A stretch of 64,000 nucleotides of DNA from Pseudarthrobacter sp. C4D7 (GTDB taxonomy: Bacteria > Actinomycetota > Actinomycetes > Actinomycetales > Micrococcaceae). This document shows, piece after piece, positions 39,401-43,927 of this stretch. The notes under the pieces are model-generated. The model was given only the letters and a program-made list of their open reading frames with translations. It was not told the DNA's origin and made no database searches. The translations under genes were made by a program, and so were the position numbers. The stretch spans positions 327,332 to 391,331 of the forward strand of contig NZ_JABFMW010000001.1 of assembly GCF_013359725.1 (NCBI RefSeq), given 5' to 3'. Every line of letters starts with the position of its first letter. Within the stretch, counting starts at the first letter, position 1.

Positions 39401-40480
39401 ATGACCACCTCGGCTGTATCCCTTTCGATGCCAACCATTCCCCGCAGGCGCCGCTCGCCTGAGGAGGTGGCAGCTGCAGCCCCCGTGAACGGCGACAAGA
39501 AGGTGTTGTTGGCCGCACCGCGTGGTTACTGTGCCGGTGTTGACCGTGCCGTGATCGCCGTCGAAAAGGCGCTGGAACACTACGGGCCGCCCGTGTACGT
39601 CCGCAAGCAGATCGTGCACAACGTCCACGTGGTGAGCTCGCTGGAGGAAAAAGGCGCCATCTTCGTGGACGAAACGGATGAAGTGCCCGAAGGCGCCCTG
39701 GTGATCTTTTCCGCCCACGGTGTTTCCCCGGCAGTTGTCGAATCCGCTGAGAGCCGGGGCCTGCGCACCATCGACGCCACGTGTCCATTGGTCACCAAGG
39801 TTCACAAGGAAGCTGTCCGCTTCGCCAAGGATGACTTCGATATCCTCCTGATCGGCCATGACGGCCATGAGGAAGTGGAAGGTACCTCCGGGGAAGCGCC
39901 GGAGCACATCCAGATCATCAACGGCCCGCACGAAGTGGACCAGGTTACCGTCCGCGATCCTGAAAAAGTCATTTGGCTGTCCCAGACCACCCTGAGCGTT
40001 GACGAAACCATGGAGACCGTCCGGCTGCTCAAGGAACGCTTCCCCACCCTGCAGGACCCGCCCAGCGACGACATTTGCTACGCCACCACCAACCGCCAGG
40101 TGGCCATCAAGAAGATCGCTCCGAAGGCGGACCTGGTGATCGTGGTGGGTTCGGCCAACTCGTCCAACTCCGTCCGGCTGGTGGAGGTGGCGCTCGAATA
40201 CGGTGCCAAAGCCTCCTACCGGGTTGACTTCGCCAACGAGGTTGACGAAGCCTGGTTCGAAGGCGTCGCCACGGTGGGCGTTACGTCCGGGGCCTCCGTT
40301 CCGGAGGTATTGGTGCAGGATGTTCTGCGGCTGCTGGCCGATTACGGCTACGGTGCCGTGGAGGAAGTCGTGACCGCGGAGGAAGACCTCCTTTTCTCGC
40401 TTCCCAAGGAGCTTCGGGCCACGCTCAAGGAAGCCGGGGATGTCAGTCGGGCCCTGGGCGGCCGGCGCCCCCGCGACTAG
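39401..40480 (+). CDS. ispH: 4-hydroxy-3-methylbut-2-enyl diphosphate reductase
   Basis: Last step of the MEP isoprenoid pathway, making IPP and DMAPP from HMBPP. 359 residues. The three Fe-S cysteines are visible: Cys44 ([13 protein letters not shown]), Cys128 ([11 protein letters not shown]) and Cys226 ([11 protein letters not shown]). The active-site blocks FSAHGVSP and [12 protein letters not shown] are intact. An N-terminal extension of about 30 residues precedes the core, as in other actinobacteria. Its terminator has been split by an IS element. Confidence 0.96.
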
Positions 40481-40497
40481 GACCGGCACTTCAATCC

Positions 40498-40519
40498 ATA
40501 CGGAAGGGGCCGGGCAGCC
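40498..40519. terminator. Left arm of the ispH/rmuC bidirectional terminator
   Basis: 22 bases, the exact reverse complement of 42667-42688. Removing the IS and one copy of its GCC target duplication rejoins the arms around a 3-nt loop, ACT. It begins 18 nt after the ispH stop. Confidence 0.9.
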
Positions 40520-40543
40520 TGAACTGGTCCCCTAAAGCTGGAC
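40520..40543. repeat. Terminal inverted repeat of the IS (transposase-distal end)
   Basis: 24 bases beginning TGAACTGGTCCCC. Subterminally, an imperfect inverted copy (40561-40576, CCACTTTAGCGGCCAG) lies 17 nt further in, mirroring the structure of the other end. Confidence 0.9.
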
Positions 40544-40788
40544 TCGTTAATGTGCGGGTTCCACTTTAGCGGCCAGAGATCGGCCCTTCGAAGAAGTCCC
40601 CGTCCCATTTGGGACGGGGACTTCTGTCGTTGCTGAAAACGTCCGAACAAGGTTCCCGGATAGGGCTTCCCCGCTAATAGCCAGGGCCCCGGTGCTAACA
40701 AGGTTGAAAACAACTCGGTGTCGTTCTACCAACTTCGATGTACGTTGGGTCTGTGTCTTAGTCTTCATCCGACCTCAAGGGTGTGCAC
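40544..40788. other. Non-coding IS segment upstream of the passenger gene
   Basis: Contains the subterminal inverted repeat, a 14-bp perfect hairpin (40593-40606 with 40611-40624, loop ATTT) that could end transcripts from either side, and a possible promoter TTGAAA (40704) - 17 bp - TACCAA (40727). A short open frame at 40718-41002 looks non-coding because it overlaps the better-supported passenger gene in another frame. Confidence 0.55.
40593..40624. terminator. 14-bp hairpin inside the IS
   Basis: Stem GAAGTCCCCGTCCC with GGGACGGGGACTTC, loop ATTT. No long T-run on either side, so the terminator role is a suggestion. Confidence 0.5.
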
Positions 40789-41217
40789 GTGTGGAATGAG
40801 TTTTCAGCCAAGCCCCCGCAAGCCGGCTTCGTATTACTTCCTGAGAATGGGTGGGAAGCGCTCGTACTTGCCGTCGCTGGCCCTGGCCATGGTGCCCGTA
40901 GTTCCAAACACAGCGTTCAGAAGGAGATCCCGGTTGTTACGACAACTGCAGGCTCCACAACGGTCAAGAACGTCCCTTTCACGGACCAGGACCAAGAGAT
41001 AATCGACGATTTCCTGGATGAGTACCTTGTGGCAGCAGGGTTTGAGCCTCGGCCAAGGGGCTATGACTGGTACTTGCGGTTGCCCAATGGAATCACGTCA
41101 TTCGACGAACTAAGCGTTCTCCTCAACGCCGCCCTAGCTGAGGAAGATGCTGGCGGGCACCCAGCCAAATTACGTCCTGTATTTGAACGAGTAATCGCAA
41201 AACTTTATACGGACTGA
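40789..41217 (+). CDS. IS passenger gene, unknown protein
   Basis: 142 residues from GTG 40789 (AAGGG at 40777-40781, 7 nt upstream); GTG 40783 is an alternative. I do not recognise it. The N-terminal 50 residues are moderately hydrophobic (AGFVLLPENGWEALVLAVAG), a Ser/Thr-rich linker follows, and the second half is acidic and probably helical (DQEIIDDFLDEYLVAAGFEPRPRGYDWYLRLPNGITSFDELSVLLNAALAEED). Codons such as TTA, ATA and GTA and the lower GC content differ from the chromosomal genes around it. It is convergent with orfB and lies within the transposed unit, so it travels with the IS. Confidence 0.6.
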   Translation: MWNEFSAKPPQAGFVLLPENGWEALVLAVAGPGHGARSSKHSVQKEIPVVTTTAGSTTVKNVPFTDQDQEIIDDFLDEYLVAAGFEPRPRGYDWYLRLPNGITSFDELSVLLNAALAEEDAGGHPAKLRPVFERVIAKLYTD

Positions 41218-41261
41218 TCGGGCCTGGGCGAAGCTCTCATTCAGCGTTGGCTGAGAGGGAC

Positions 41262-42074
41262 CTATGCCGCAAGCATCTGAGCACGATACTGCACCGGGCT
41301 CAAACCCTTGAGCTTGGTGGAAATTCTTTCGGTGTTGTACCAGCACATGTACTCATGCAGCGCTGATGCGAGTGCATCGGTGTTGAGGAACCGGACGCGG
41401 TGAAAGAGCTCTTCCTTCAGGTGTCCGAAGAAGTTCTCCATGACGGCGTTGTCGTAGCAGTTGGCTTTGCGGGACATCGATTGGACCGCGCCGGCGTTCG
41501 CCAAGAGTGTGCGCCACGAGTTGTGCTGATATTGGAATCCCTGGTCGGAGTGCACGAGGGGTTTCTGGCCGTTCTCCAGCGTGGCCAAGGCGCCGCGCAG
41601 CGAGGCGTTCGCCAGCTCCAGATTGGGTGAGGTGCCAATTGCATAGGAGATGATCTGCCGGTCAAAAAGGTCCATGACCGGGGAGAGGTAGAGCTTCCGG
41701 TCACCGACGCTGAACTCGGTCACATCGGTGACCCACTTCTGATTTGGCGCATCCGCTTCGAACTGTCGCTTCAGCAGGTTCGGAGCAACAACTCCCTGCT
41801 CGCCCTGGTAGGAGCTGTACCGCTTCCTGCTCCGGACCTTACAGACCAGCTGCAGGGAACGCATCAGCTTCAGCACGGTCTTCTTGGCGACCGTCCAACC
41901 TTGCTTGAGCAGTTCAATATGGATCCGGCGGTGCCCGTACCGGCCGTGGTTCTTCTTGAAAATCTCCGTGACAGCTGCCTTTAGGGAAGCCCGCGGATCA
42001 GGGCCTTTAAGACGGGCCTGGTGGTAGAAGAACGTGGACCGGGGTAGCCCGGCTACGTCCAGGAGAACTTCCAA
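41262..42074 (-). CDS. IS3-family transposase OrfB (DDE catalytic part)
   Basis: 270 residues as read from ATG 42074. HTH_21 region (HGRYGHRRIHIELLKQG), then the rve integrase core with Asp117 (WVTDVTEF), Asp177 (HSDQGFQY) and Glu213 (MENFFGHLKEE): DD(35)E spacing. The end YNTERISTKLKGLSPVQYRAQ is typical of the IS150 group. The frame is open upstream to the slippery site at 42146-42152, so it is probably made as an OrfAB fusion and not from its own start. Confidence 0.95.
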   Translation of the reverse strand: MEVLLDVAGLPRSTFFYHQARLKGPDPRASLKAAVTEIFKKNHGRYGHRRIHIELLKQGWTVAKKTVLKLMRSLQLVCKVRSRKRYSSYQGEQGVVAPNLLKRQFEADAPNQKWVTDVTEFSVGDRKLYLSPVMDLFDRQIISYAIGTSPNLELANASLRGALATLENGQKPLVHSDQGFQYQHNSWRTLLANAGAVQSMSRKANCYDNAVMENFFGHLKEELFHRVRFLNTDALASALHEYMCWYNTERISTKLKGLSPVQYRAQMLAA

Positions 42075-42112
42075 CCTGTGCTCAGCCTTGAGAGCGATGA
42101 CAGCGCGGACCT

Positions 42113-42601
42113 TTAGCGCTGTTCCTCGTCCCTCAAGGCGTTTACTTTTCCCAGGAAGGCCACCTCTGCCCGCAGGCGTTCGTTCTCACGGCGCAGCCGC
42201 TCCACCTCAGACTCAGGTTTCCTTGCCGTCCCGGGATTCGTCTTAGGACGGCCCTTCGGCTTGGGTCGCAGCCCGTCCTCGCCCTCAGTCCGGTACTGAC
42301 GCGCCCACTTCTCGAGCAACAGTGGAGAGGACAACCCAAGCTCTTTCGCCAGGGCGACTTTGGCCTCACCCGCGCGGTATCGCTGCACAGCATCAAGTTT
42401 AAACTCAAACGAGAACACCGGTCGTATTGGCTTCGCCACCAGCGTCGTACCTCCGCGTGTCCGCCATCGACCATACAAACGTTTGATGGCACCTCTACCT
42501 ACCCCGAGTCGGGTCGCTACCGCCCAGGCACCCCAACCCGTTTCAAACAACGCTACCGCGGCCTCGCGCTGCTCCTCGGACAACGAACTTCTTCCATGCA
42601 T
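42113..42601 (-). CDS. IS3-family transposase OrfA (DNA-binding part)
   Basis: 162 residues. Two helix-turn-helix blocks (REAAVALFETGWGAWAVATRLGVGRGAIKRLYGRW and DAVQRYRAGEAKVALAKELGLSSPLLLEKWARQY), a basic linker, then a leucine zipper (SEVERLRRENERLRAEVAFLGKV). ATG 42601 has GGGGAG 7 nt upstream. That ribosome-binding site lies in one arm of a 17-bp inverted repeat whose other arm is in the terminal repeat. Confidence 0.93.
   Translation of the reverse strand: MHGRSSLSEEQREAAVALFETGWGAWAVATRLGVGRGAIKRLYGRWRTRGGTTLVAKPIRPVFSFEFKLDAVQRYRAGEAKVALAKELGLSSPLLLEKWARQYRTEGEDGLRPKPKGRPKTNPGTARKPESEVERLRRENERLRAEVAFLGKVNALRDEEQR
42146..42152 (-). promoter_or_regulatory. -1 programmed frameshift heptamer G GGA AAA
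   Basis: On the minus strand GGGAAAA is in phase X XXY YYZ with the orfA codons CTG GGA AAA. A -1 slip enters the orfB frame, which is open from here to the orfB stop. Confidence 0.85.
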
Positions 42602-42603
42602 AA

Positions 42604-42658
42604 AACTGCTCCCCGAAAGTCAGAACTGATTTCGCAGTCCAACTTTCGGGGAGCAGTT
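42604..42658 (-). repeat. 17-bp inverted repeat across the IS end and the orfA ribosome-binding site
   Basis: 42604-42620 and 42642-42658 are exact reverse complements, with a 21-nt spacer. In an mRNA entering from outside, the hairpin would hide GGGGAG of orfA. Confidence 0.85.
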
Positions 42659-42660
42659 CA
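42637..42660. repeat. Terminal inverted repeat of the IS (transposase-proximal end)
   Basis: The reverse complement begins TGAACTGCTCCCC. It differs from the distal repeat at 3 of 24 positions. Confidence 0.92.
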
Positions 42661-42666
42661 GCCACT

Positions 42667-42688
42667 GGCTGCCCGGCCCCTTCCGTAT
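42667..42688. terminator. Right arm of the split ispH/rmuC terminator
   Basis: Exact 22-base complement of 40498-40519, ending 12 nt before the rmuC stop. It still ends in a C/T-rich run. Confidence 0.9.
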
Positions 42689-42700
42689 CTTCCGCAGGTC

Positions 42701-43927
42701 TCAGGCTGCTTCGTCGTTGCCCTGCAACTCGGGTGCCACCAGCGCCCGCGGGGTCGCCTCCACCATCGGAGGCGCGGCCAGGCCGGATTCCTCCAGGCTG
42801 TTGAGCTTCCGGGCCGTCGGCAGCACCCTTGCTTCCAGGGTGCCCACCATGGCGTTGTAGCGGTCCACGGAGGTCTTCAAAGAGGATCCCAGTTTGGTGA
42901 CGTTCTCGCCCAGGGTGCCCATCCGGTCGTACAGCTGCCGTGCAAGTTCAAAGAGCTCGCGTGCGCTGTCCGTCAGGACGTCCTGGCGCCAGGTGAACGC
43001 CACGGATTTCAGCACGGCCAGCAGGGTGCTCGGTGACGCAAGGACAACGTTGCGCGACAACGCGTGGTCCAGGAGCCCGGCGTCAGCTGTGAGGGCCGCA
43101 GCCAGGATGGATTCGGCGGGGATGAAGCAGACCACCAGTTCCGGTGAGTTGCCCGGGATGTCCCAGTACTTCTTGGTGCCCAGCGCATCGACGTGTGCCC
43201 GCAAGGCCTTGGCGTGTGCCGCCAGGAGGGCCTGCTTGTTGCGCCCGTCATTGACCGACTGCGGTCCAGCCTGGCCCAGGCGGGGGTCTACCGCGCCCAG
43301 TTCCTGCGCCTCAAGGTAGGACGACAGCGGAACCTTGGCGTCCACCACCAGCTGCTTTTCGCCCGGCAGCTGCACCACCAGGTCCGGCCGCACCGCTGAG
43401 TCGTGGCCCGCGCTATGGACCTGCTCCACGAAGTCGACGTGGCGGAGCATGCCGGCGGCCTCCACCACGCGCCGGAGCTGCACCTCGCCCCACTGGCCCC
43501 TGGCGCTGTTGGAACGCAGCGCCGATTCCAGCGCATGCGTGGAGCGGATGAGCTGCTCATCGGAGAGCCGGGCCTCCTGCAGCTGCTGGGCCAGCTGGCC
43601 GTACTGCTCCACCCTGTCCCGCTCCAGCAACGCCACCTGCTGCTGGACGGCGGACAGTTTCTCGGCCACGGGCCCCAGGGCTCGCAGCACGCTGCCGTCC
43701 TGTGTCCTGGCCTCGCCCAGCTCGCGGTTCTGTGCAGCCAATAGCCGCCGCTCGGCGTCGGCCGCTGCCAGCTGTGCCGTGACCTCGGAAAGACGTGAGG
43801 ACACGTGGTCAAAGTCCGTTTCCAGGGCCTGCGCGTTCCGGCGCAGGGAGAAAAAGGTGGCCGCGGCGCCGGCGAGGGCACCAAGCAGCAGCATGAAGAG
43901 GGCCAGAATCAAGGCAAAAGCATCCAT
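42701..43927 (-). CDS. rmuC: RmuC-family DNA recombination protein
   Basis: 408 residues from ATG 43927 (MDAFALILALFMLLLGALAG); a longer start at 43972 is possible. N-terminal membrane helix, a long coiled coil (about 30-150), then the RmuC nuclease-like domain: SARGQWGEVQLRRVVEAAGMLRHVDFVEQ, VVDAKVPLSSYLEA and VVCFIPAESILAAAL. RmuC limits sequence inversions in E. coli; the mechanism is unclear. It is convergent with ispH, and the shared terminator is interrupted by the IS. Confidence 0.9.
   Translation of the reverse strand: MDAFALILALFMLLLGALAGAAATFFSLRRNAQALETDFDHVSSRLSEVTAQLAAADAERRLLAAQNRELGEARTQDGSVLRALGPVAEKLSAVQQQVALLERDRVEQYGQLAQQLQEARLSDEQLIRSTHALESALRSNSARGQWGEVQLRRVVEAAGMLRHVDFVEQVHSAGHDSAVRPDLVVQLPGEKQLVVDAKVPLSSYLEAQELGAVDPRLGQAGPQSVNDGRNKQALLAAHAKALRAHVDALGTKKYWDIPGNSPELVVCFIPAESILAAALTADAGLLDHALSRNVVLASPSTLLAVLKSVAFTWRQDVLTDSARELFELARQLYDRMGTLGENVTKLGSSLKTSVDRYNAMVGTLEARVLPTARKLNSLEESGLAAPPMVEATPRALVAPELQGNDEAA

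Follow-up and report, generated by a model that had tools for sequence, protein, structure and literature searches.

The window, that is, the whole stretch of 64,000 nucleotides of Pseudarthrobacter sp. C4D7 that was analysed, contains an insertion sequence (IS) of the IS3 family between two genes that we take, from reading the sequence, to be ispH and an rmuC-like gene. A gene of the DUF5956 family lies inside the inverted ends of this element, in a slot between the second transposase gene, orfB, and the right end. The features of the locus are as follows.

40520..42660, minus strand: whole element, IS3 family, relative of ISArsp13; 2141 bp, identified by inverted ends, GCC duplication and transposase genes
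40520..40544, plus strand: right terminal inverted repeat (IRR), with 2 differences from the IRR of ISArsp13
42636..42660, minus strand: left terminal inverted repeat (IRL), upstream of orfA
40517..40519, no strand: target duplication GCC on the right-end side, from the sequence
42661..42663, no strand: target duplication GCC on the left-end side, from the sequence
42113..42601, minus strand: orfA, helix-turn-helix part of the transposase, 162 codons (PF13518, PF01527); overlaps the orfB frame
41262..42125, minus strand: orfB, catalytic DDE part of the transposase (rve; PF00665, PF13333, NF033516)
40789..41217, plus strand: cargo gene DUF5956 (PF19381), 142 codons, starting at GTG with AAGGG close ahead of it; convergent with orfB
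40592..40625, no strand: right-end hairpin with 16-nt arms, belonging to the right-end module of cargo-bearing copies
42604..42658, no strand: left-end palindrome, an inverted copy of IRL adjoining IRL, just ahead of the orfA start
40498..40519, no strand: arm 1 of a terminator-like host hairpin behind ispH (22-nt perfect inverted repeat), split by the insertion
42667..42688, no strand: arm 2 of the host hairpin (22-nt perfect inverted repeat)

The element and its passenger gene

The window element had inverted ends of 25 bp; the right end (TGAACTGGTCCCC..) started at 40520 and the left end closed at 42660. Target duplications in the IS3 family are short, 3–4 bp, as was the GCC duplication found here. 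The length of the inverted repeats also fitted the family, for which a passage of a published account gives 20–40 bp (PMC7371123). OrfA carried the helix-turn-helix and OrfB the DDE integrase core of IS3-family transposases, and OrfB scored 319 bits in a profile search against NF033516, for which the cut-off is 160. OrfAB of IS3-family elements is produced by programmed frameshifting. The orfB frame was open for 307 aa and extended upstream into orfA, and its annotated start at 42125 is putative. With one transposase and one pair of ends, the element did not have the build of a composite transposon, whose cargo lies between two IS copies. The arms of the left-end palindrome were 17 nt long and perfect (42604–42620 and 42642–42658). 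This palindrome was present in 39 of the 40 cargo-bearing and 74 of the 88 cargo-free copies having a left end, and may mask the orfA start in transcripts arriving from outside.

Between the orfB stop and the right end lay 742 bp when counted to the outer edge, or 717 bp excluding the 25-bp repeat, in agreement with the 720 bp given in a preliminary description of this DNA. A closer terminal repeat right after orfB, which would define a shorter element, was absent: an end scan met its first right end at 742 bp. The interval, end repeat included, consisted of the hairpin with 16-nt arms and one convergent open reading frame (ORF) at 40789–41217. The preliminary description had regarded this ORF as a 142-residue passenger gene, convergent with orfB and with its own ribosome-binding site. 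The GTG start with AAGGG just upstream was consistent with that view, as was the location of the segment within the inverted ends and the target duplication, the site being free of the element in relatives. The lower GC content that had been ascribed to the gene was also confirmed (54.3%, compared to 58.4% in orfB, 63.0% in ispH and 65.8% in the window), and its supposedly rarer codons, gauged by GC3 alone, corresponded to 55.2% compared to 76.8–84.0% in three neighbours. The possible promoter found no support in a simple scan for sigma-70-type promoters from 40480 to 42720, which returned 0 where 0.4 were expected.

The cargo protein is a member of the DUF5956 family, matching PF19381 with 89.3 bits (cut-off 24) at residues 14–108 of a 144-aa reading. 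Between the window copy and its homologues at three other loci (L035, L199, and L200), dN/dS was 0.24–0.31 (0.23–0.31 across the DUF5956 comparisons), and the gene is under purifying selection. The PF19381 match, the homologues and the dN/dS values together show that the ORF did not arise by chance. DUF5956 genes were found in 44 of 198 same-genus genomes, mostly at 30–40% identity. In a phylum sample, 3 of 296 genomes (the window's own included) had a match, 2 of them above the cut-off, and none of 14 control genomes had one.

Homologues beside the same transposase were sought and were found at two loci. L035 had a close homologue in the same slot of a related element, and L200, a decayed element, had one next to the remains of an orfB and a right end. 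At L199 (5508–6091), a DUF5956 segment 86% identical to the cargo lay outside any recognised end of this IS. Its match to the window element covered only the stretch that starts just inside the hairpin and ends 27 bp short of the orfB stop codon; this segment is either detached cargo or the kind of source from which the cargo came. Six distant relatives outside such an IS (L202–L207) were examined; they had no linkage to these elements and, by eye, no common neighbour. Because L199 lies outside recognised ends and these six genes are unlinked, DUF5956 is not specific to the IS. At a further locus (L201, G148:C55), pieces of a DUF5956 gene lay on the same contig with ~11 kb between them; a rearrangement probably broke this gene. 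To judge from the cargo-free relatives of the element, DUF5956 presumably plays no part in transposition.

A search of the element's own genome yielded no other full-length match, and the window element was the sole copy of its cargo kind. The search also returned two further related elements and one short end fragment. One of these elements had the same right end and carried an ECF sigma factor together with a membrane protein, which was without a Pfam match and which we read as the anti-sigma partner; the other was cargo-free. In the same genome, 57 bp at G000:C5:41747-41804 (L006, L011) matched the left end of the element with 81% identity; this match stood alone and is perhaps a remnant of another copy. 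Since it holds the only such cargo in the genome, has two changes in its right end and lacks a recognised promoter, the window element may be inactive and its cargo gene may be silent.

The slot in related copies

Of 516 related loci in named genomes we took the best 80, and we added most of the same-genus and same-family matches; element ends were located by script, and copies more than 50% identical in OrfB were counted. A close OrfB relative (E ≤ 1e-120) was present in 51 of 206 same-genus genomes. Among 146 related copies, both copies with and copies without a segment in the slot were found: the right end lay at most 60 bp past the orfB match in 100 and farther away in 44, and 2 were left undetermined with no right end within reach (L015 and L236, the latter at the same place as L013). 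Three copies were dropped, namely L075, whose length is an artefact of a transposase in two pieces, L191, in which a different transposase-like ORF follows orfB and the cargo is not original, and L197, at the same place as L055. The remaining 41 were cargo copies; four of the loci (L038, L039, L041, and L042) are at contig ends and are perhaps only two physical copies, and a recheck of the 146 rows found no further double counting. Measured from where the orfB match ends, the distance to the outer right end was bimodal, with 28–60 bp in the 100 cargo-free copies and 474–5325 bp in the 41 cargo copies (the slot length of L161 includes part of another element inserted there). Of the copies in which both ends were present, 30 of 36 with cargo (counted ahead of the three exclusions) and 75 of 87 without had a duplication of at least 3 bp.

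An orfB tree of 124 rows, restricted to rows at least 60% identical, included 40 of the 41 cargo copies; L069 was left out as its broken transposase was too short. The 40 cargo rows formed two clades of 30 and 10 (SH-aLRT 100 each) that held no cargo-free row, and two changes suffice on this tree. A single origin of the cargo rows was not rejected in an AU test (p = 0.33, all 42 cargo rows of the tree used for that test). All 14 regions from three other genera of the family were cargo-free, as were the Rhodococcus, Nocardiopsis, and Corynebacterium rows. The preliminary description had called cargo genes uncommon in IS3-family elements; here the cargo is no peculiarity of a single element, since two transposase clades carried cargo in every examined copy, and of widely varied kinds.

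The same slot of the 41 copies held 22 groups of cargo DNA, defined by DNA similarity, with L161 and L238 placed by their genes. As identified by Pfam or by the sequence record, cargo included a sulfate permease (SulP) with a MerR regulator, ECF sigma factors, GNAT and GntR proteins, and DUF5956. Pyridine-nucleotide/FAD oxidoreductases were found with a hydrolase in L019 and with a TetR regulator in L014, and most of the other cargo proteins scanned had no family match. The small membrane proteins carried by L030, L078, and L154 had a similar C-terminal stretch by eye, so the number of groups at the protein level is somewhat below 22. Proteins of this type were also seen, by eye, as cargo in both orientations relative to orfB. 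Other cargo genes tested were also under purifying selection, with dN/dS of 0.05–0.09 in SulP and 0.24 in the ECF pair and in one small membrane protein; it was higher (0.41) in the cargo protein pair L016/L069.

Most cargo copies had in common ~115 bp at the right end, consisting of the hairpin, a subterminal stretch and the end repeat. A stem of at least 13 pairs was present at the hairpin position in 35 of 41 cargo copies, compared to 9 of 410 random stretches; the 6 right ends without such a stem included L161, which was measured on its inserted element. The SulP copies L020 and L057 ended in a stretch that by eye resembled the last part of a cargo-free copy from its stop codon on, which suggests that their cargo was captured separately. 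The feature common to most cargo copies is DNA, the right-end module, rather than a protein.

Four sets of copies (L152/L153, L154–L156, L164/L165, and L021/L022), each within one genome, were 100% identical end to end, cargo included, and the members of a set occupied different targets with different duplications. Related elements move together with their cargo, as seen in these relatives rather than in the window copy itself. An element with SulP and MerR was also found on a plasmid of Arthrobacter sp. FW306-05-C that was typed as conjugative. In the plasmid record, nothing in the annotation connects the transposase gene with the cargo genes, which are entered individually, and such cargo is therefore easily overlooked.

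Target sites

The target was a perfect 22-nt hairpin, a predicted terminator, that immediately follows the core gene ispH; the window element had inserted into its loop, and the rebuilt site folded with 22 pairs (−50.4 kcal/mol). Matches were present in 30 other genomes, and 15 related loci from these were examined; in all 15, ispH was followed within ~155 bp by the rmuC-like gene, with no IS between them. A similar hairpin was seen by eye between the two genes in 2 of the 15 (L249 and L251). When the sites were rebuilt, 67 of 106 (27 of 35 for cargo and 40 of 71 for cargo-free copies) formed a stem with 9 pairs or more. The corresponding controls were 22 of 522 for mismatched flank pairs and 12 of 530 for random sites, both counts being calculated from fractions. 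The other 39 of the 106 rebuilt sites fell short of a 9-pair stem. From their form and position, we infer that the target hairpins are terminators. In L161, the right-end hairpin of a cargo-bearing element was interrupted by a cargo-free relative flanked by an AAA duplication, which indicates that the right-end hairpin can itself be a target.

Apparent cargo exchange and comparison with known systems

Copies L009 and L035 had cargo 93.0% identical over 1415 bp and right ends 92.7% identical, compared to 75.8% in orfB. Their dS was 0.13–0.19 in the two cargo genes (the ECF pair) and 1.22 in orfB, which is 6–9 times lower in the cargo. Between the window element and L035, dS was 0.43 in DUF5956 and 1.14 in orfB, and L023 and L055 were 94.0% identical in cargo, 83.9% in orfB and 70.9% in orfA. 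Such values would be expected if cargo had been exchanged between transposases. Alternatively, cargo was inherited in two lineages with little exchange, and the diverged backbones reflect faster change of the transposase. In three SulP pairs, dS in cargo (0.47–0.60) and in orfB (0.60–0.91) was not very different, as expected from inheritance; the cargo values were only somewhat lower, and exchange is therefore not required for all shared cargo. AU tests of same-cargo rows as one transposase clade did not reject that clade for SulP (p = 0.063), nor was one clade rejected for all cargo rows together, but it was rejected for two other cargoes, smallTM103 (p = 0.009) and lipo200 (p = 0.018). Given these rejections, and in L009/L035 the low cargo dS and a right end as similar as the cargo, we consider inheritance with little exchange unlikely.

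In the single element L035, DUF5956 was next to orfB, followed by a relic of the right-end hairpin and then by the ECF cargo at the right end, so that it combined both cargoes of the two elements of the window genome. L019 had a partial right end after orfB and then a fragment of another orfB, which we read as the trace of an unequal fusion of two elements. Separately, L014 and L019 were 95.9% identical in the region ahead of orfB (orfA) and 83.3% in orfB, so the transposase itself looks mosaic.

The slot products might instead be regulators of transposition or stabilisers of the element and not cargo useful to the host. Cargo was never absent from the two clades among the examined copies, as if it were needed, and some cargoes are regulators (ECF sigma, MerR, TetR, GntR). 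However, the slot contents comprise 22 unrelated DNA groups, cargo-free relatives have also multiplied within genomes, and it is the DNA of the right-end module, not a protein, that most cargo copies have in common; we therefore think this explanation improbable. A transposition regulator or a toxin/antitoxin-like factor had also been named in the preliminary description, and neither gained support, since slot content was unrelated in most comparisons and eight cargo proteins (DUF5956 and 7 others) matched 0 families in PADLOC, a library of anti-phage defence systems described by 2023. That a chance chromosomal piece was trapped once in one IS copy, with no wider meaning, is very hard to credit: the DUF5956 cargo is single in its own genome, and most same-genus DUF5956 genes are only distantly similar, with the six examined lying away from such elements, but the idea is contradicted by 41 cargo copies, two all-cargo clades, identical multi-copy elements, cargo on diverged backbones, and DUF5956 in the L035 slot and beside the element remnants of L200.

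We conclude with good confidence that the window holds an IS3-family IS with a DUF5956 passenger, that the contents of its slot are apparently exchanged, and that it is likely a small shuttle into terminator-like hairpins. The slot is an exchangeable cargo site of a transporter IS, mostly closed by the hairpin module, with a presumptive route of exchange as follows. Transposition would use the circular copy-out, paste-in intermediate of IS3 elements, carrying along anything between the ends. Cargo would be swapped by recombination between element copies through their common orfB and right-end sequences, and occasional unequal fusions would stack cargoes and leave relic right ends. By landing in a terminator loop the element would leave genes intact, and its own right-end hairpin would halt transcription at that site. 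The cargo gene would be expressed and be of use to the host or to the element. Through such an element, genes are likely acquired, exchanged and passed around among soil bacteria of the Arthrobacter type. A more far-reaching version is conceivable, and we put it forward tentatively: an obligate cargo bay between orfB and the right end, in which gene-plus-terminator cassettes are swapped between backbones and can be stacked, would amount to minimal integron-like shuffling without integrase or attC, by a 1.4-kb IS landing harmlessly in terminators.

The usual view of IS3 elements is that they are selfish and encode a transposase and nothing else. If a lineage carries a gene in every copy, of many kinds, and inserts into terminators, it would offer soil actinobacteria an inexpensive means of gene transfer that does almost no harm, and the common right-end module makes cargo gain and swapping in a small IS directly testable. 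In the open-licence PMC literature we found no cargo-bearing IS3-family elements of this kind, and they may have been described elsewhere. No IS3-family lineage with cargo constant in presence and variable in kind came up in the literature searched.

The nearest named element was ISArsp13 of plasmid pA2H2 (IS3 family, IS150 group), which in the relevant part of its description is 1442 bp long with no passenger gene, has the ends TGAACTGCTCCCCGAAAGTTGGACT (IRL) and TGAACTGGTCCCCGAAAGTTGGACT (IRR), and makes a 3-bp duplication (PMC6305408). On that description, its terminal repeats are nearly the same as those of the window element, and both have a 3-bp duplication. The OrfB of pA2H2 was 64.5% identical to the query over 96% of the query, and the flanks of ISArsp13 were hairpin-like by eye, as at the window element. 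Unlike in the cargo-bearing window element, the right end of ISArsp13 directly follows orfB.

Palindromic targets are also chosen by IS1397 and ISKpn1, two IS3-family elements that insert into REP palindromes (PMC1525189). The passages on these elements (PMC1525189) concern a single repeat family and do not describe cargo, whereas the targets of window-type elements are terminator-like hairpins of varied sequence. IS copies with passenger genes have been termed transporter IS (tIS) (PMC9330008, PMC3129680). In the tIS passages of these papers, the passenger genes are unrelated to transposition and lie inside the inverted ends, and the window element likewise has such a gene within its inverted ends. 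Beyond what those passages cover, the elements studied here form a lineage of the IS3 family that as a rule carries cargo, which is varied and has apparently been exchanged between transposases.
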